From contig NZ_AP027080.1 of NCBI RefSeq assembly GCF_030295405.1, positions 3,890,001 through 3,954,000 on the forward strand: DNA of 64,000 nt, read 5' to 3'. This document shows, piece by piece, positions 16,045 to 28,989 of the stretch (its first letter is position 1; each line of letters begins with the position of its first letter). The DNA is from Mesoterricola silvestris (GTDB lineage Bacteria; Acidobacteriota; Holophagae; Holophagales; Holophagaceae). The notes under the pieces are model-generated. The model had not been told where the DNA came from, ran no database searches, and saw nothing but the letters and a program-made list of their open reading frames with translations. The translations under genes and the position numbers were made by a program.

Positions 16045-19000
16045 CTACTTGTTGTATACGTGGTACCCGAGCCTGAAGGAATCCGTCTCGGTGGAGTTTT
16101 CAACCTCGGCCATGGTCTTCTGGATCCATTCGGCGGCGGTGTAGACGGGGTTCCCCGCCAGGACCGAGGGCACGCGGTAGAAGCTCTTGTCCGCCCCGGG
16201 ATTGGCGGCGCCCCAGCTCAGGTCGCCGATGGCGTCGATCCGGGCGTCCCAGGAGGCCGAGGTGGCCGTGGGGACGGTGGTGATGTAGACGGCGTCGTTT
16301 CCGTTGAAGTTGATCACGGTGCTGTTGGCGATGGCCGCGGCGCCGTTGGTGAGGTGGGCGGCGTCGGGGAGGGGCGGGGTGGAGGCGGTGGCGCTCTTGA
16401 AGAGGAGGCTGGCGCCGGGGGCGATCGTGCCGGGAATGGGCATGGTCTTGAAGGTGTTGCTGGTGTTGGGGTTGGTCCAGAGGCCCAGGTGGAGGGGGGT
16501 GACGGCGGCGTCGTAGGTGCCGGTGCCGACGTTGGTGACCTCGATCCACTTGTTGTAGCTCGTGCCTTCGTAGTACTGGCTGATGATCAGGGAGGGCACC
16601 CCCGTGGGGCCCGCGGGGTCGACGGTGAGGGTGAAGGTCGCCGTGGTGCTGGCGCCGTCGCCGTCGGTGGCGGTGAGGGTGACGGTGGCCGTTCCGGTGA
16701 GGCCGGCGGCGGGGATCAGGGCCAGGCTGCAGGTGCCGGAGGCGTTCACCACCGCCAGCGCGGAGGGCAGCAGGACCGTGTTGTCGGCCGTGGCGGTCAC
16801 CGCGAGGCTGCCGGGGGCGGTGGTGTCGTCGGCCACCGTGAAGGAGACCGTGACGGGGTTGCCGGCGGTGGTGGTCTGGTTGGCGACGCCGGAGAAGGTG
16901 GGCGCCTCGTTGGGGCCCTTCACCTTGATGACGCGGGTGATGGTGTTGCTGGCGCCCAGGCTGTCCTGGACCGTGAAGGAGGCCGAGAAGGAGCCTCCCA
17001 GGGAATAGGTGTGGCTCGCGGTCATGCCGGTGGAGACGGGGGTCCCGTCGCCGAAGTTCCAGGTGGCCGAAGCGAGGGTGGTGCCCTCGGGCGAAGCGGA
17101 GGAGGGCGTGGCGGCCCCCGCGAAGGTCACGGTGTCATTGACGTTGATCTGGGTGTCCCAGCTGGGCTCGACCATGTGGACGTTGGGGCCGGAAGCCTGC
17201 TCGAAGGGGGCGCGCCAGCCGCGCACCTCCACCGTGGCCTTCCAGGCGGGGATGTCCAGCCCGGGGGCCATGGCCTGGAGGTTGGGGAAGAAATCCAGGC
17301 CGGTGAGGGCCTCGATGCGGGCGACGGAGGTCACGTAGCGGGTGAGGGTGGCCGGCGCGTTGATCTGGCCCCAGGCGTTGGGCAGGATCAGGGCCAGGGC
17401 CTTGGGGTGGCCCGGGGTGGGCTCGGACACCACGATCTTGTAGCAGGCGGTGGGAATGGCGATCTTCAGGTCCGGCTGGACCCGGGACGTCCACCACGCG
17501 GGGCTGGGGGGGAAGTAGGAGCCGGTGTAGACCCACACCCGGCCCATGTACGAGGTGACGCCGTCGGTGTCGCCGCCCTGGGAGCCGCCGATGGTCTCCT
17601 CCAGCCGCTGCCAGAGCTGCTGGTTGAACTGGGAGATCTGGGGCACGAGGTTGCTCATGATGGTGGCGTCGTCGCCGGCCACCGGGGAGTAGCGGTAGGA
17701 CACGTCGGCCCGGGGCACCTGGTGGCCGCGGTCGTAGCTGTCCGGGGAGCCCGCGCCGCCCGTGTAGATGCCGGTGTAGTCGTCCTTGCCCACCTGGGGC
17801 GCCGCCAGGCGCAGATCGGCGGTGTAGTCCTTGGTGGAGTTGGCGTAGGGCTTGTGGACCGGGAAGTTCAGGTACGAGGTCCAGACGGGGTTCTTCAGGG
17901 ATTCGTCGTAGCCCAGGCGGAAGGCGCCGTTGGGGTACTTCTCCGCGTCCACGTGCAGGGAGGGCAGCACGGTGATGGGCCGCGCGGGCACGGGGACGGG
18001 GTCGCCGGCGTAGACGGGGCTGGGCACCGCGGCCACGGCGAAGGCGTTGGCGCTCTCCACCTGGAAGGTGCCGTCGCCGACCACCACCGAATAGGCGTCC
18101 CCGTTGGTGGGGAACTCGGTGGAGGCCACCGTGTAGGAGGCGCCGTCGGCGCCGCTGATGGGCGTGCCGTTGAGCCTCCAGGAATAGGTGAGGGGCCCGC
18201 CGTGGTTCGCCGCCGCGGTGACGGTGAAGGTCACGCCGTCGGGGGGCAGGACGGTCCGGCTCTGGGGCTGGGTGAGGAGGGTCGGCGGGGCGTGGACGGC
18301 CACGGCCGCGGCCTGGCTCACGGTGGAGGTCGCCGTTCCGTTCAGGGTGCAGGTGGCGACGGCGTCATAGCTCCCCCCGTCGGCGACGGTGACGGCCGCG
18401 AGGGCGAATTCCGGGGAGGTGGCCCCGGCGATGGGCTGGCCATCCTTGCGCCACTGGAGCGTGACGGAGCCCTGCCCGGCGGAGGCCGCGGCGCTGAGCG
18501 CCAGGGGCGCGCCCAGGTCCACGGTCTGGGAGACGGGCTGGACCGTGAAGACCGGAGGCACGTTCACCTGCAGGAGGGCCGCCGCGGAGGTGGCGGTGGT
18601 GACGGTGCCGTTGAGGGTGTTGGTGACCACGGCGTCATAGCTGCCGGCGTCGGCCCCCGTCACGGAAGGCAGGCTCAGGGCGGCGGAGGTGGCGCCGGCC
18701 AGGGCCGCGCCCCCCCTGCGCCACTGGTAGCCCAGGGTGCCGTTGCCGGTGGCCTTCACCGCGAAGGAGGCGGCCCCGCCCTGCACCACCGTGAGGCCCG
18801 CGGGCTGGGAGGTGATGACCGGGGGGACGTTGATGGCCAGGGTGGCGGGGTGGCTGTGGACCCAGCCCGTGGGATTGCTCACGATCACCGTGTAGACCCC
18901 CGCGCTGGCGGCCGTGGTGGCCGGCAGGGTCAGGGTGGCCGAATCTCCGCCCACCCGGTGGAGCCCCTTCAGCCACTGGTAGTGGAAGCGGCTGGGCTTG

Positions 19001-19218
19001 CCCGTCACCTCCACGTGGAAGGTCACCGCCTGCCCGCTGATGACGGTCTGGCTCAGGGGCTGGGTGACGATCCTCAGGTGATCGGGCTTGTGGAACCAGC
19101 CCAGGTGCCTGTCCTGGTCATGGTCCGGTCCCCCGGCCCTGGCGGGGGAGGCGAAGGTGCCCAGGCCGAGCACGGCCAGGCACAGGCTCATGCGAGCCAA
19201 GCATCGAAGTGCCAACAT
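16045..19218 (-). CDS. Secreted DNA/RNA non-specific endonuclease with Ig-like, PKD and lamin-tail-like modules
   Basis: This 1,057-residue protein has a Sec signal peptide, then about four Ig-like repeats (residues 50-400; each with 'VTFHV...YQWLK...AGVYTVIVSN'-type strands). The nuclease domain follows: DRGH (496-499, catalytic His499) and 'SNLVPQISQFNQQLW' with the Mg-binding Asn, as in Serratia nuclease/NucA. Next come a PKD domain ('WNFGDGT'), another beta-sandwich and a C-terminal segment ('LIISQYYEG...NKWIEVTN') typical of lamin-tail domains in extracellular nucleases. It probably degrades extracellular nucleic acid for nutrition or biofilm remodelling. AAGGAGG precedes the ATG. An inverted repeat lies just upstream. 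Confidence 0.88.
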   Translation of the reverse strand: MLALRCLARMSLCLAVLGLGTFASPARAGGPDHDQDRHLGWFHKPDHLRIVTQPLSQTVISGQAVTFHVEVTGKPSRFHYQWLKGLHRVGGDSATLTLPATTAASAGVYTVIVSNPTGWVHSHPATLAINVPPVITSQPAGLTVVQGGAASFAVKATGNGTLGYQWRRGGAALAGATSAALSLPSVTGADAGSYDAVVTNTLNGTVTTATSAAALLQVNVPPVFTVQPVSQTVDLGAPLALSAAASAGQGSVTLQWRKDGQPIAGATSPEFALAAVTVADGGSYDAVATCTLNGTATSTVSQAAAVAVHAPPTLLTQPQSRTVLPPDGVTFTVTAAANHGGPLTYSWRLNGTPISGADGASYTVASTEFPTNGDAYSVVVGDGTFQVESANAFAVAAVPSPVYAGDPVPVPARPITVLPSLHVDAEKYPNGAFRLGYDESLKNPVWTSYLNFPVHKPYANSTKDYTADLRLAAPQVGKDDYTGIYTGGAGSPDSYDRGHQVPRADVSYRYSPVAGDDATIMSNLVPQISQFNQQLWQRLEETIGGSQGGDTDGVTSYMGRVWVYTGSYFPPSPAWWTSRVQPDLKIAIPTACYKIVVSEPTPGHPKALALILPNAWGQINAPATLTRYVTSVARIEALTGLDFFPNLQAMAPGLDIPAWKATVEVRGWRAPFEQASGPNVHMVEPSWDTQINVNDTVTFAGAATPSSASPEGTTLASATWNFGDGTPVSTGMTASHTYSLGGSFSASFTVQDSLGASNTITRVIKVKGPNEAPTFSGVANQTTTAGNPVTVSFTVADDTTAPGSLAVTATADNTVLLPSALAVVNASGTCSLALIPAAGLTGTATVTLTATDGDGASTTATFTLTVDPAGPTGVPSLIISQYYEGTSYNKWIEVTNVGTGTYDAAVTPLHLGLWTNPNTSNTFKTMPIPGTIAPGASLLFKSATASTPPLPDAAHLTNGAAAIANSTVINFNGNDAVYITTVPTATSASWDARIDAIGDLSWGAANPGADKSFYRVPSVLAGNPVYTAAEWIQKTMAEVENSTETDSFRLGYHVYNK

Positions 19219-22519: not shown

Positions 22520-23215
22520 CTACGGAATCGGCGCCGGCGGGGCCATGCGCGGGAGTTCGGATTGGGTTCGCCATCGTCCGGATTCCAGCACATGGGCGAT
22601 GAGCGCCGGGAGGCCCGGGTCGAAGCCCGCGGGGGCCCTGGCGAGCAGGCCCGGGCGCCGCAGGGGGAGCAGCAGCAGGTTCTCGATTTCCAGCACCATC
22701 CAGGCCCGGGCGGGTTCGTCCAGATCCGGGCGGAGGGCGGCGACGCAGGCCTCGAGGCGGAGCACCAGGGGGCGGATGGCCTCGGCGGCCGCCGCCTCGG
22801 TGCCCTCCCGGGGGCTGGCCATGGCCCGGGCCAGCAGCGCCACCACCACCTTCCCCAGCCGCGGCCCCGCCGGCCCCGGCAGCCCCGCCCCCGGCACCAG
22901 GGCGCACAGGGCCCGGAGGGCCTCCCTGGCCGCCGGAGCCGGATCGCCCTCCGCCGGAAGGTCCGGCACCCGCGCCGCCATGCGCGCCGCGAGGCGCCCC
23001 GAGAACCGCAGCGCCTCCAGGTACAACCCGTCCTTCCCCCCGAAGTGGAACCAGATGGCCGCGATGCCGGCGCCCGCCTCCTGGCTGATCTTCCGGGTGG
23101 TGGCGCCTTCGTACGCATTGCCGGCGAACACGACGATGGCGGCCTTCAGGAGGTGCCACCGGGTGAGGTCCCCCGGGGCCAGGGCGGCGCGGCCCGGGGC
23201 GGAGGGGCGGCTCAT
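22520..23215 (-). CDS. TetR/AcrR-family transcriptional regulator
   Basis: The 231-residue protein has an N-terminal TetR helix-turn-helix ('[32 protein letters not shown]') and a larger C-terminal ligand domain with hydrophobic helices. Its ATG overlaps the stop of the pump gene (ATGA), so it is translationally coupled to the efflux system it presumably represses in response to a substrate. I found no clear palindromic operator immediately ahead of the operon apart from the GGCAC/GTGCC repeat at the sigma-54-like site. Confidence 0.88.
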
Positions 23216-26200
23216 GACCGGCCCAGCAGCTGGTTCAGTTCGGCATAATCCAGTTCCAGCGCCAGCTTGGCAGCCAGGAGGTCGGCCTCCGCGCCCCGGG
23301 CGGCCGCGTCGGCTTCCGCGGCCCGGGCGGCGGAGATCACCCCGGCCTTGCGCTGGTTTGCGGCCAGGCGGGCCCTTTCCACCTGGAGCTCCCGGGCCTC
23401 CGACGCGGCCTCCGCCAGGAGCTTGGCGGTCTCGATCTTGCGCAGGACCTTGCCCAGGTCCACGTCGATCCGCCGGCGCAGCCGGTCCCGGTCCTCCCCG
23501 GCCTGGGTCAGCTGGGCCCGGCGCTGGCTCACCACGTAGGCCTTGCGCCCCCCGTCGAAGATGGACCAGGACAGGGCCAGCCCGTACGACGTGTAGTTGC
23601 TCCGCAGGAAGGGCGCGCCGTCCTGGTGGGTCTGCCGCGCGAAGGCGCTCACGTCCGGGATGAAATCGGCCAGGCCGGCCCGCACGCCGCTGCGCCCCTG
23701 GTCCACCTTGGCCTGGGCCCGGCCCAGATCGGGGTTGCCCTTGAGGGCCTCCTCCAGGAGGAGCTCCCGCGCGGGCAGGTCCCGGACCCCGGCCGCGATG
23801 GGGGCGGGCTCCACGGGCGCGTCCAGGGGGCGCCCCATCAGGTCGTTGAGCTCGGATTCCAGGTCCAGGATGGAGGCCCGCTCCGTGAGTTCCCGCTGGC
23901 GGCTCTGGAGCAGGAGGGCCCGGCTGCCGGTGCGCAGCACCGGGAGGGCGTTGCCGGCCTCCACCGACGTGCGGGCGTCCTGGTCGGCGGCCTCGGCCGC
24001 CGCCACCCCGGCCAGGGCCGCCTCCACCCGGGCCCGGGCGATGAGGAGGCCCACGAAGACCTGGCGGGTCTTGAAGGCGATCTCCACTTCCATGCGGCGC
24101 AGCTCGGCCCGGGCCGCGCGCTCCTCGGCCGAGGCGGCCTCGTAGCCGTGGTGGCTCTTCAGGAGCTGGGTGAGGGGCTGGCCCACGGTGAGGTTGGCCA
24201 GCTTCATGCTGTCCTTCCCCTGGCCCAGGGTCATGTCCTGGGTGGGAAAGGGCCCCAGGCCCGGCACGGCGCCCAGGGAGCCGGCGGGGACCTTCACCAG
24301 GTTCTCCGCGTTCAGTCTGGTATAGGTGGCCTCCAGGGACACCTGGGGCAGGAAGTCCGCCCGGGCCCCGCGCCGCCGGGCCTCGAACTCCTTCACCCGG
24401 GCCCGGGCGATGCGCACGCCGGCGCTGCGGTCCAGGGCCCCGGCCACGGCCTGGTCCAGGGTGAGGGGGGCCGTCTGGGCCCCCAGGGAGCTGCCCGCCC
24501 CCAGGAGCAGCAGCGCCAGGAGGCCGGCGGCCACCGGGGCCTTCCGCCGGCGGAACAGCAGCACGTAGAGCACCGGCACCACCAGGAGGGTGAAGAACAT
24601 GGAAAAGACCAAACCCACCGCCAGCACGCTGGCCAGGGGGCTCCACAGCTTGGATCCGGAGACGATCATGGGCGTCACCCCCACGGCCGCGGCCATGGTG
24701 GTGAGGAAGATGGGCCGGAGCCGGCGTTCACCGGCCTGCTTTGCCGCATCCTCCAGGGTGGCCCCCTGGCGCAGGCGCTCCTTGATGTAGTCCACCAGGA
24801 TGATGGCGTTGCGCACGACGATGCCGCACAGGCTGATCATGCCCATGAAGGCCGTGAAGCCGAAGGTGTTGCGGGTGAGCAGGAGCCCCGCCACCACCCC
24901 GAAGAGGGACAGCGGGATGGACGCCATGACCACCAAAGGCTCCGTGAGGTTGCGGAACTGGATCATGAGGATGAGGAAGATGGCCAGGAGGCTGATGCCG
25001 AGCGCGACGATCATCTCCGGGAGGGTCTCCTCCTGGTTGGCCACTTCGCCGCCCCGTTCCACCCGGTAGCCCGGGGACAGGGGCAGGGCATCCACCTTCG
25101 GCTGGGTTTTCGCCAGGATGGCGGAGGCATAGACCCCGGCCGCGGGCAGGCAGCGCACCGTCAGGGTGGGAACCCCGTTGCGGCGAACGATCCGGCTGGT
25201 TTGCCAGGCGGGCGACAGGTCCGCCACCGCCCGCAGGGGCGCCTTGCTTCCGGACACCCCGGAATTCACGTAGGTGTTGCCCACCGCGTCGAAGGAGCCC
25301 CGGTGCTCGGGATCCGCGCGGAGCAGGATGTTCACGGCCCGGTCCCCCTCCCAGAAGGTGCTCACGGGCACGCCGTCGAAGGCCCCCCGGAGGAAGCCCG
25401 AGGTCTCCTCGTGGGTGAGCCCCAGCCGGTCGGCCAGGTTGGTGTTCAGGTTCACGTCCAGCAGGGGCGAATCGTTGCGGAAATCCGTGTGCACGAACCG
25501 GGAGCCCGGGTCCGACCGCAGGATGGCCTGGATCTGCTCGCCGATGACCTTGAGCTGGGCGGGGTCGTCCCCGCTGATGCGGTACTCGAGGGGGGCCTCC
25601 ATGACCGCGCCCTGCTGGAGCTCCTGCACCAGCACCATGGCCTCCGGGGCCAGGTCCGCCAGGCGGGAGCGCAGGGCCATCACCAGGGCGGGGGTGGCCT
25701 TGGCGTCCCGGGTGTTGACGATGAACTGCCCGTAGGCCGGATCCGGCTGCTGGGGGTTCACGTTGTAGTAGAAGCGGGGCGAGCTCTGGCCCACGAAGCT
25801 GGCCACGTGGTCCACCTGGCCGTCGCCCAGGAGCTCCCCTTCGATGCGGCGCATGACCGCGTCCGTGGCCTCGAAGCGCGCCCCCTGGGGCATCCACACA
25901 TCGATGACGAACTGGTTGCGTTCGGCGTTGGGGAAGAACTGCTGGGGAATGAACCGGAAGAGAAACACCCCCAGGGCGATGGCCGCCGCCCCCAGGGCCA
26001 CCGCCATGGCCGGCCGGCCCATGAAGACTCCGATGGCCTTGCCGTAGGCCCCCTGGAGCCGGTCCAGGGCGCTGGGCCGTTCCTTCTTCGCCGCGGCGGC
26101 GGGGTCATGGAGGCCCTTGTGGATGAAGGTCCGGCACAGGAGCGGCGTGAGGAACACCGCCACCAGGAAGGAGACGGAAAGGGCTACGGCCACGGTGATG

Positions 26201-27597
26201 GGCAGGGCCATGATGAATTCCCCCGCCGACCCGGTGATGATGAGCAGCGGCAGGAAAGAGGCGATGATGGTCAGGGTGGCGGTGAGCACCGGCACCAGGA
26301 CCTCCTGGGCCGAACGCCAGGCCGCCTCGGCCTTGGGCACCTGGTGGTCCAGCAGTTCCACGTAGTTGTCGGCGATGACGATGGCGTCGTCCACGACGAT
26401 GCCCAGCACGAGGATGAGCGCCGCGATGGACACCTGGTGGAGCTGGAGCCCGATGGCGTTCATGACGCCGATGGTGGAGAGCATCGTGGTGGGGATGGCC
26501 AGGGCCGCGATGACCGCCACCCGGAAGGGGAGCAGGAGCACCGTCACCAGGATCACGCAGGCGATGGCGATGATGAACTCGTGGCCCATGCTCTCCATGC
26601 GCTGCTCCACCACCCGGGGCTGATTGGCGATGTAGTCCAGCTTCAGGTCCGGCGGCAGGAGCGGCCTGATGCGCGCCAGCACCTCCGACACCCGTTCGCC
26701 CATTTCCACGATGTTGTGGCCCTTCTGCATTTCAACGGAAAGCATGAGGGCCGGCTTGCCGTCGTAGCGCACCATGAATTCCGGGTCCTGGTAGCGGCGC
26801 TCCACCTTGGCGAAATCCCCAATGTAGCTGGGCTGGCCCGTGGGCGAGGCGCCGACCATCACCCGGCCGATCTCCTCCTCCGTGCTGAACAGGGACCGGG
26901 TGTGGATGGGAATCCGCTCCTGGTCCGTGCGCAGGTTGCCCGCCCCCTGCACCGCGTTGCGCTGGGCCAGGGCCGCCGCGACCCGGCGCGGATCGGTGAA
27001 GTACTGGCTCATGCGCTCCAGGTTGCTGGTGATCCAGATCTGTTCGGACTGGTTGCCGTACAGGGCGATCTTGCCCACGGAGGGCACCGTGCGCAGGGCG
27101 TCCTGGATCCGGTCCGCGTAGTCCTTCAGTTCCCGGTACCCGTAGCGCTGGCCGGAAACGGAAACCAGCATGGCCACCGTATCGCCGAAGTCCGAATCCA
27201 CCACGGGGCCCATCACCTGGGGCGGCAGGGAGGCCGCCTTGGCCAGGAGCATCTCGTGGCGGAGCTTGGACCAGAACTGATCGGGGTTCTTGACGCCCTT
27301 CTCCAGTTCCACGTTGATGATGCAGAGGCCGGGGCGGCTGGTGGAGTAGGTCTTCTCCTTGCGCACCTCCTGGAACTTCAGGATGGTGGCTTCCAGGGTC
27401 TTGGTGACCTGCTTCTCCACCTGTTCGGAAGTGGCGCCGGGATAGGCGGCGGCCACGATCCCGGTGCGGATGGTGATGGTGGGGTCCTCGGTGCGGGGCA
27501 TGCCCAGGAGGGAACGGATCCCCACCAGCACGGCCATGGCGGCCAGGATCACCGTGAGGGTGGGGTAGCGGAGGCAGGCCTTGATCACGCGCGTCAT
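23212..27597 (-). CDS. RND efflux pump fused to a TolC-type outer-membrane factor
   Basis: The 1,461-residue protein has two complete parts. Residues 1 to about 1020 are an HAE1-type RND pump: 'VILAAMAVLVGIRSL' TM1, two large periplasmic loops and the TM4 proton-relay motif 'GIVVDDAIVIADN' with paired Asp. After the last pump TM ('VLYVLLFRRRK') comes a signal-peptide-like segment (about 24,480-24,540) and then about 420 residues of TolC/OMF sequence ('LTLDQAVAGALDRSAGVRIARARV', 'PLTQLLKSHHGYEAA', 'ELNQLLG'). I chose the ATG at 27597, with GAGGGG 8 bp upstream, over a GTG six bases earlier. It overlaps the TetR gene. The substrate is unknown; HAE1 pumps export organic toxicants. Confidence 0.92.
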   Translation of the reverse strand: MTRVIKACLRYPTLTVILAAMAVLVGIRSLLGMPRTEDPTITIRTGIVAAAYPGATSEQVEKQVTKTLEATILKFQEVRKEKTYSTSRPGLCIINVELEKGVKNPDQFWSKLRHEMLLAKAASLPPQVMGPVVDSDFGDTVAMLVSVSGQRYGYRELKDYADRIQDALRTVPSVGKIALYGNQSEQIWITSNLERMSQYFTDPRRVAAALAQRNAVQGAGNLRTDQERIPIHTRSLFSTEEEIGRVMVGASPTGQPSYIGDFAKVERRYQDPEFMVRYDGKPALMLSVEMQKGHNIVEMGERVSEVLARIRPLLPPDLKLDYIANQPRVVEQRMESMGHEFIIAIACVILVTVLLLPFRVAVIAALAIPTTMLSTIGVMNAIGLQLHQVSIAALILVLGIVVDDAIVIADNYVELLDHQVPKAEAAWRSAQEVLVPVLTATLTIIASFLPLLIITGSAGEFIMALPITVAVALSVSFLVAVFLTPLLCRTFIHKGLHDPAAAAKKERPSALDRLQGAYGKAIGVFMGRPAMAVALGAAAIALGVFLFRFIPQQFFPNAERNQFVIDVWMPQGARFEATDAVMRRIEGELLGDGQVDHVASFVGQSSPRFYYNVNPQQPDPAYGQFIVNTRDAKATPALVMALRSRLADLAPEAMVLVQELQQGAVMEAPLEYRISGDDPAQLKVIGEQIQAILRSDPGSRFVHTDFRNDSPLLDVNLNTNLADRLGLTHEETSGFLRGAFDGVPVSTFWEGDRAVNILLRADPEHRGSFDAVGNTYVNSGVSGSKAPLRAVADLSPAWQTSRIVRRNGVPTLTVRCLPAAGVYASAILAKTQPKVDALPLSPGYRVERGGEVANQEETLPEMIVALGISLLAIFLILMIQFRNLTEPLVVMASIPLSLFGVVAGLLLTRNTFGFTAFMGMISLCGIVVRNAIILVDYIKERLRQGATLEDAAKQAGERRLRPIFLTTMAAAVGVTPMIVSGSKLWSPLASVLAVGLVFSMFFTLLVVPVLYVLLFRRRKAPVAAGLLALLLLGAGSSLGAQTAPLTLDQAVAGALDRSAGVRIARARVKEFEARRRGARADFLPQVSLEATYTRLNAENLVKVPAGSLGAVPGLGPFPTQDMTLGQGKDSMKLANLTVGQPLTQLLKSHHGYEAASAEERAARAELRRMEVEIAFKTRQVFVGLLIARARVEAALAGVAAAEAADQDARTSVEAGNALPVLRTGSRALLLQSRQRELTERASILDLESELNDLMGRPLDAPVEPAPIAAGVRDLPARELLLEEALKGNPDLGRAQAKVDQGRSGVRAGLADFIPDVSAFARQTHQDGAPFLRSNYTSYGLALSWSIFDGGRKAYVVSQRRAQLTQAGEDRDRLRRRIDVDLGKVLRKIETAKLLAEAASEARELQVERARLAANQRKAGVISAARAAEADAAARGAEADLLAAKLALELDYAELNQLLGRS

Positions 27598-27599
27598 GG

Positions 27600-28679
27600 T
27601 CACTTCCCCTCGGGGGCGAGGCGCACGTCCATGCCGTCCCGCAGGCCGTTCTGCCCGGCCACGACGATGGGCTCGGTGCCCAGGAGGCCCGAGCGGATCT
27701 GGATGCGGGTGCCCAGCACCTGGCCCGCCTCCACCCGCTTGGAATAGACGCGCCCTTGGTCCGGGAAGAACTGGTACACCAGCGTCGCCCCCTGGGCATC
27801 GCGCACGATGGCCCCCATGGGCAGGCTGAGCATGTCCAGCTTCCGGGTGCCCGAGATGGCCACCTCGGCCACCATGCCCAGCTTGAGCTCCTTCCCGGGG
27901 TTGGGCACGGAGATGCGGGTCATGTAGGTGCGGGTGGCGGGGTCCGCCGAAACGTTCACCACCTTCACCCGCCCCTGGAAGAACCGCCCCGGCAGGGCCG
28001 GCACCCGCACGCTGGCCGCCTGGCCCACCTTCACCAGGCGCACATCGGTTTCAGGCACGCCCACGTTCACTTCCACCGGATCCAGGGGGGAGATCTCGAA
28101 GGCCGGCTGGCCCGGCGCCACCATCACCCCCGGTTCCACCAGGCGCCGGGAGAGGTAGCCGCCAATGGGCGCCACCAGCCGGGCGTCGTCCAGGTTCCGG
28201 CGCGCCGCGGCCTCCCCGGCCTGGGCCTGCCTGAGCTGCTGGGCCGCCGCGTCCCGGGCCGCCGTGAACTTGGCGAAGTCGTTGGGCGCCAGGCTCCGGC
28301 TATCGTGGAGCTGCTTCATGCGCCCGAACTCCTGCTCGGCCTGCCGGGCCCCGGCCGCGGCCGCCTCCGTCTGGGCATGGGCCGCCTCCAGGGCATGGCG
28401 CAGGTTCTCGGCGTCCAGTTCCGCCAGCACCTGCCCCTTGCGCACCGGCTCCCCTTCGCGGGGCATCACACGGAGGGTGCGCCCCGGCACCAGGAAGGCC
28501 ACCGTGGAGGCGTTGCCGGGGGAGGAGAGGGTGCCGCTCACGGTCACCTGCTCGAATTCCAGGGTGTGGGTGGGTTGGGCGACGGCCACGGGAACCCGGG
28601 CGTCGGCCGGCTTGGGATCCTTGCCGCGGCCGCAGGCCACGAGGAGGACCGCGGTCCAGGGAATGAGGTATCTGTTCAT
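27600..28679 (-). CDS. RND efflux adaptor lipoprotein (membrane fusion protein)
   Basis: The 359-residue protein starts at the ATG at 28679 (AAGGAAG upstream) and has a lipobox LLVAC with Cys16. It shows the HlyD/AcrA layout: lipoyl half-motifs ('PGRTLRVMPREGEPVRKGQV' and 'RLVAPIGGYLSRR'), a coiled-coil hairpin between them, a beta-barrel and a membrane-proximal domain. It bridges the pump and channel portions across the periplasm. It lies between the STAS gene and the pump gene; its stop overlaps the upstream alternative GTG of the pump. Confidence 0.93.
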   Translation of the reverse strand: MNRYLIPWTAVLLVACGRGKDPKPADARVPVAVAQPTHTLEFEQVTVSGTLSSPGNASTVAFLVPGRTLRVMPREGEPVRKGQVLAELDAENLRHALEAAHAQTEAAAAGARQAEQEFGRMKQLHDSRSLAPNDFAKFTAARDAAAQQLRQAQAGEAAARRNLDDARLVAPIGGYLSRRLVEPGVMVAPGQPAFEISPLDPVEVNVGVPETDVRLVKVGQAASVRVPALPGRFFQGRVKVVNVSADPATRTYMTRISVPNPGKELKLGMVAEVAISGTRKLDMLSLPMGAIVRDAQGATLVYQFFPDQGRVYSKRVEAGQVLGTRIQIRSGLLGTEPIVVAGQNGLRDGMDVRLAPEGK

Positions 28680-28704
28680 GGTCTTCCTTGGGAAACGGGG
28701 GGAA

Positions 28705-28989
28705 TCAGCCTTGGGGGACATGGGGGAGCTCCTGGAGCAGGGCCGTGACGAAGGGGCCGGAGCCCTGGAGAACGCAGCCGAGCCGCTGGAGCGCGCCCAG
28801 GGTCGCCAGCCCCTGGGCGTCCACGAAGGAAACGGCCGCCAGGTCGATGGTCACGGCTCCGCCGGCCTTGGGGAGCCGGGGCAGGTCCATCCACACCCGG
28901 AACAGTTCGGCGCTCCAGGGATCGATCAGCTTCCCTTCCAGACGAAGGGTCACCCGCGCGGCATCGGTCTCGATATGGATCCTCAGCAC
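28705..28989 (-). CDS. STAS-domain protein (anti-sigma-factor antagonist-like)
   Basis: A 94-residue single-domain protein with the STAS pattern: N-terminal strand 'VTLRLEGKLI', then 'VTIDLAAVSFVDAQGLATLGAL', in which the phosphorylatable Ser of SpoIIAA-type antagonists is replaced by Ala ('DAQG'). It therefore probably acts as a non-phosphorylatable or NTP/lipid-binding STAS module. The GTG start at 28989 has GGGAGG at 6 bp. It is the first gene after the sigma-54-like promoter and 25 bp ahead of the adaptor gene; STAS domains also accompany lipid transport systems. Confidence 0.8.
   Translation of the reverse strand: MLRIHIETDAARVTLRLEGKLIDPWSAELFRVWMDLPRLPKAGGAVTIDLAAVSFVDAQGLATLGALQRLGCVLQGSGPFVTALLQELPHVPQG

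Follow-up and report, generated by a model that had tools for sequence, protein, structure and literature searches.

The closest described systems are the HAE1 pumps MexJK-OpmH/OprM and TriABC-OpmH of Pseudomonas aeruginosa, whose pumps MexK and TriC are the nearest solved relatives of the pump described here. According to an excerpt of PMC9323910, MexJK exports triclosan when paired with OpmH, and when paired with OprM it exports erythromycin and tetracycline; TriABC is listed with OpmH in a section of PMC8277102. The usual gene order is given as MFP-RND-OMF in the relevant passage of PMC4790245. In MexJK and TriABC the channel is a separate protein, whereas in the present locus it forms the C-terminal part of the pump protein. 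AcrAB-TolC resembles the locus in four AcrB residues (D407, D408, R971 and T978, all matched) and in its TolC-type channel, but it consists of three separate proteins in E. coli. The metal pumps CusCBA and CzcCBA (HME) share the tripartite plan with the locus, but not the pump score or the CusA residues given below. Fusions of outer-membrane pore proteins to other domains are rare, and the section of PMC4827864 that says so names no RND case. No description of an RND-channel fusion with an internal signal peptide was found in the literature searched (open-licence PMC papers, no preprints); both domains are known, and within that literature the new part is that they are joined, with a signal peptide inside the chain.

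The pump-channel gene and its operon

We analysed a window of 64,000 nucleotides from the genome of Mesoterricola silvestris (Acidobacteriota), which carries on its minus strand an operon in the order adaptor, pump-channel fusion and TetR. The first gene (27600..28721) encodes a periplasmic adaptor (membrane fusion protein), as indicated by Pfam HlyD_D23 (E 5e-33) and NCBIfam RND_mfp (230 bits, cut-off 94.9), and its stop codon lies 2 bases ahead of the ATG of the fusion gene (23212..27597, minus strand, TGA stop). A GTG at 27603 is also a possible start, and the frame counted from it (23212..27603) comprises 1463 aa without the stop. The ATG at 27597, which directly follows the adaptor stop and is the start given in the initial annotation, is the likelier one. 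The third gene (22520..23215, minus strand) encodes a TetR-family regulator (Pfam TetR_N, E 7e-10) and overlaps the fusion stop by ATGA. Elsewhere in the window, positions 16045-19218 (minus strand) encode a secreted-looking protein of 1057 aa with apparent Ig-like repeats and a DRGH motif, which we presume to be that of non-specific nucleases.

Positions 23212-27597 were confirmed to form a single open frame that encodes a complete RND pump, a short basic-hydrophobic segment and a complete TolC-type outer-membrane factor, with no in-frame stop between TM12 and the channel. An open frame is by itself weak proof in DNA of 70% GC, where the other two minus-strand frames are likewise open at the junction; the proof that the fusion is real is that relatives keep the junction in frame. 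The gene was present in 7/60 related genomes (56-72% identity), and in all seven the junction was in frame: five matched over the full length (56-71% identity), and two (G031 and G011) end at contig ends yet cross the joint. No match to the fusion was found in the same-genus genomes G001 and G004 (one contig each). The joint also occurs in other phyla, including the isolates Oryzomonas japonica, Geomonas and Persicobacter. An assembly or frame error in the window genome, for which the GC-rich DNA with its several open frames would speak, is contradicted by these relatives and was rejected as having practically no chance of being true. The initial annotation had described pump and channel as one polypeptide, and the frame, both domains and the conserved junction bear this out; when relatives were checked for the separate genes that would have refuted it, all seven close relatives had fused genes and a more distant one (Candidatus Solibacter, L055) had split genes.

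The pump half (24556..27582, minus strand) contained a full-length Pfam ACR_tran domain (E 4e-186), which takes up residues 8-1016 when the frame is counted from the GTG and covers profile positions 3-1020 of 1021. The nearest solved pumps were 6vej (468.7 bits), whose entry in the structure table reads just "probable RND transporter" and which is taken here to be TriC, and MexK (461.9 bits), followed by the next at 279.9 bits. The aspartates D405/D406 of TM4 align with AcrB D407/D408, AcrB R971 and T978 are matched by R and T, and R931 aligns with K940, a position that is Arg in 22/22 rows of the window pump's clade; AcrB stands on a different branch of the tree. The scores against the NCBIfam HAE1 models were below their cut-offs (TIGR00915, 411 of 940; RND_permease_2, 524 of 1250), as for a divergent branch, so the label HAE1-like is used, and by these comparisons the pump is placed as HAE1-like on the MexK/TriC branch. 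A CusA/CzcA (HME) type was ruled out by the TIGR00914 score (342.6 bits, below the cut-off of 701.45) together with the absence of the CusA residues: E939, K984 and the Met triad M573, M623 and M672 are replaced by R, I, D, Y and a gap, respectively, and none is kept. The earlier assignment to the HAE1 rather than the CusA/CzcA type therefore stands, given the DD pair in TM4 and the missing CusA residues.

The C-terminal half (23215..24477, minus strand) matched Pfam OEP twice from residue 1049 on (best match 1049-1257, E 7e-41), and TolC was the top solved structure by sequence profile (E 5e-22). The AlphaFold2 model of the mature channel, built from 16 sequences, reached a pLDDT of 86.8 and shows the elements H1 H2 S S H3(72) H4 H5 H6 S S H7(69) H8, which is the complete TolC order. 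Foldseek with this model returned ST50, OprN and TolC at E values near 1e-14 to 1e-15, with a TM score against TolC of 0.69-0.74. Profile and model together identify this half as a TolC-family outer-membrane factor; no Cys for a lipid anchor was found at the window joint.

The joint and the proposed processing of the precursor

The two halves are joined by VLYVLLFRRRKAPVAAGLLALLLLGAGSSLGAQTAPLTL, which runs from the end of TM12 through basic residues, a hydrophobic core and small residues to the start of the channel. The signal-peptide-like joint that the initial annotation had placed near 24,480-24,545 was located at about 24478..24552 (minus strand; converted from residue positions). It has a basic n-region (RRRK), a core (GLLALLLLGAG, mean 2.89) and small residues at -3/-1, with a candidate cut at SLG↓AQ or LGA↓Q. 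In the nearest split relative, the Candidatus Solibacter locus L055, the pump stop and the channel start overlap in ATGA, and the channel begins with MKFLLAILIATISLPLQA. The C-terminus of an RND pump is cytoplasmic, as judged by homology, so a signal peptide placed there would be correctly oriented. Because the channel of the split relative bears a normal signal peptide, the internal segment is best interpreted as the channel's former signal peptide.

A hydrophobic core was present in 44/44 junctions (9-residue mean of at least 2.3). An A-x-A followed the core in 35/44 junctions, against a shuffled mean of 21.4 with 0/2000 shuffles reaching 35, a count that is not a probability because the junctions are mutually related. 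The laxer rule [AVSTG]x[AG] matched 40/44 junctions against 37.6 after shuffling and showed nothing beyond composition. The window junction has no A-x-A and is a weaker site than the A-x-A of most relatives. Compared with seven close relatives, the linker was the most divergent part (12-46% identity; pump, 63-77%; channel, 40-59%). Both Persicobacter fusions have Gln directly past the predicted cut (SWG↓Q and SSG↓Q), as do split Bacteroidota channels. These sites fit the Q-rule described for Bacteroidetes signal-peptidase I substrates in part of PMC5837995, in which Gln follows the cut, and they count in favour of cutting.

From these sequence features we consider it likely that the locus is a MexK/TriC-like HAE1 drug-efflux operon whose fused genes yield a polyprotein, which signal peptidase I would cut so that pump and channel are made 1:1. 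The precursor would insert into the inner membrane by 12 helices, with the channel's former signal peptide serving as a thirteenth, and Sec would move the channel domain to the periplasm. Signal peptidase I would then cut past ...SSLG or ...SSLGA, and the freed channel would follow the usual route to the outer membrane and join the pump and adaptor. The fusion would in this way supply pump and channel in equal numbers and in one place, and 1:1 synthesis would match a pump trimer to a channel trimer. A related plan is known from FbcH, the cytochrome b/c1 polyprotein of Bradyrhizobium, in which an inner-membrane protein leads into an internal signal peptide, the site of cutting by signal peptidase. 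Both products of FbcH remain in the inner membrane, whereas the second half of the window fusion would go to the outer membrane.

The initial annotation had left open whether the protein spans both membranes or is cleaved. That pump and channel stay covalently joined, as a single chain across both membranes, agrees with the missing stop codon and with a tether in every fused member, but the linker falls far short of what the known assembly would require. In both sequence and model, helix H1 of the channel begins about 14 residues past the hydrophobic core. In solved channels H1 belongs to the equatorial domain, halfway along the 100 Å periplasmic barrel (an excerpt of PMC8277102), and in tip-to-tip models the adaptors stand between pump and channel (the relevant part of PMC4446572), so an uncut tether of about 50 Å could not reach. 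An uncut chain would also have no need of the c-region motif that is kept, or of the Gln after the predicted cut in Persicobacter, and we judge it very unlikely. A different product would result if translation of the channel began mainly at an internal start codon in frame, served by a ribosome site of its own, and the long protein were a by-product. In-frame ATG or GTG codons do lie near many junctions: the window GTG (V1024) has GGAAGG ahead of it, and in L015, L016, L047 and L053 an ATG falls on or close to the end of TM12. However, a conserved start codon in the basic n-region was looked for across the junctions and was not found, Shine-Dalgarno matches were poor or missing, the Met of L047 is replaced by Lys in L048, and the product of the window GTG would be without the basic n-region, which makes a mainly internal start improbable. 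Cutting of the polyprotein is thus the likelier outcome of the two that had been named. The accompanying claim that the fused gene fixes a 1:1 stoichiometry can hold for synthesis only, as turnover can differ after cutting, and the start codons near several junctions mean that some channel could start internally.

Occurrence and origin of the fusions

Among 25 named loci, 15 were fused and 10 were not; within the 15, L044 and L046 repeat the contigs of L013 and L011, and L045 lies in G288. The fused loci include Oryzomonas japonica, Geomonas anaerohicana and G. azotofigens as well as Geobacter MAGs, a Seleniivibrio MAG and a Bryobacteraceae MAG. Plasmid-borne fusions were found in Gemmatirosa kalamazoonensis (two copies) and in two Persicobacter strains, where the fusion WP_338399011.1 (1467 aa) is annotated only as a permease. 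Pfam detected pump and channel in 6/6 fused proteins tried, from different branches.

Within Acidobacteriota, 28/396 genomes contained a pump of the window's kind at E 1e-200 or better. In 11 of these 28, scoring above 1200 bits, all 11 frames pass the joint, that of G403 then breaking inside the channel; six scored 998-1070 bits, with five split and one (G377) fused; and 11 scored below 730 bits, of which the seven looked at (L137-L143) had no channel in frame. In the phylum around Oryzomonas a match occurred in 4/198 genomes (three fused, one split), and in Bacteroidota in 14/395 genomes (16 places), with 0/14 fused. Of the 17 pump matches in the window's own genome, the nine examined besides the window pump itself (L002-L010) had no channel in the pump frame; the long frame of L008 was considered as a fusion and rejected, being an upstream extension. 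The initial annotation had presupposed pump-channel fusions of the CzcA/CusA type; in Acidobacteriota this found no support, as the two longest frames among the matches listed (1480 and 1382 aa) have no in-frame channel.

Several further loci were recorded. In G403 (L135, 2693-6085 and 5997-7199) the break lies inside the channel domain, at query residues 1093-1103, and not at the joint. A same-family genome carries a 567-aa frame (L136/L171, contig G206:C1, 1784-3484, minus strand) with the last ~90 pump residues and the whole channel, and no further pump piece was found around it in 12 kb; it looks like a truncated fusion. In nine distant fused pumps (L040, L041, L057, L062 and L144-L148), AcrB D408 and K940 both align with Asn (9/9), and the proton relay of these pumps may differ. 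A second fused set (L149-L157), eight of whose members come from one Acidobacteriota family, has an AcrB-like Lys at K940 (9/9).

The ATGA overlap of L055 recurs in five more split pairs (L127-L131), so that 6/6 share it, and in all six the channel carries a Met-started signal peptide. Genes that overlap by ATGA lie in different frames, and one small indel before the stop would presumably join them. A 79-pump tree with 41 fused and 38 split members required at least 6 label changes, and strongly supported branches force 6; a 49-row tree with the plasmid rows required at least 5, of which 4 are forced by strongly supported branches. Both trees come from fast searches and have a single support measure; the root is a midpoint, and the label changes carry no direction. 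The simplest reading is that the fusion arose repeatedly from adjacent genes, which is favoured because the split genes are adjacent and split forms are common. One ancient fusion followed by several splits would agree with the directionless label changes and the midpoint root, but in the six split pairs the genes overlap in the ordinary way and the signal peptides begin with Met, and the split arrangement predominates in Bacteroidota as well as in those pumps of the 79-pump tree that lie outside the fused groups; we hold this order of events to be unlikely. In both trees the L135 pump falls among Geobacteraceae and not with the pumps of its own family, which is that of the window; this placement and the two Gemmatirosa plasmid fusions make transfer between phyla possible.

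Meaning of the fused architecture

Tripartite pumps are regarded as sets of three separate proteins, and the fused case is hidden by annotation, as with the Persicobacter "permease". If the precursor is cut as proposed, an outer-membrane protein would be delivered from within an inner-membrane protein, and repeated fusion hints at a benefit of equal or local synthesis. We tentatively suggest, as a possibility less likely than the processing itself, that pump-channel polyproteins evolved several times because one-chain synthesis exports and assembles each new channel beside its own pump (in cis), the inner-membrane protein carrying the channel to the translocon and signal peptidase I freeing it. 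If true, this would be a way of building a two-membrane machine that is without description in the literature searched (open-licence PMC, no preprints). The fusions are also natural pump-channel pairs that must work together, and such pairs are useful because the choice of channel is often unclear from genomes.
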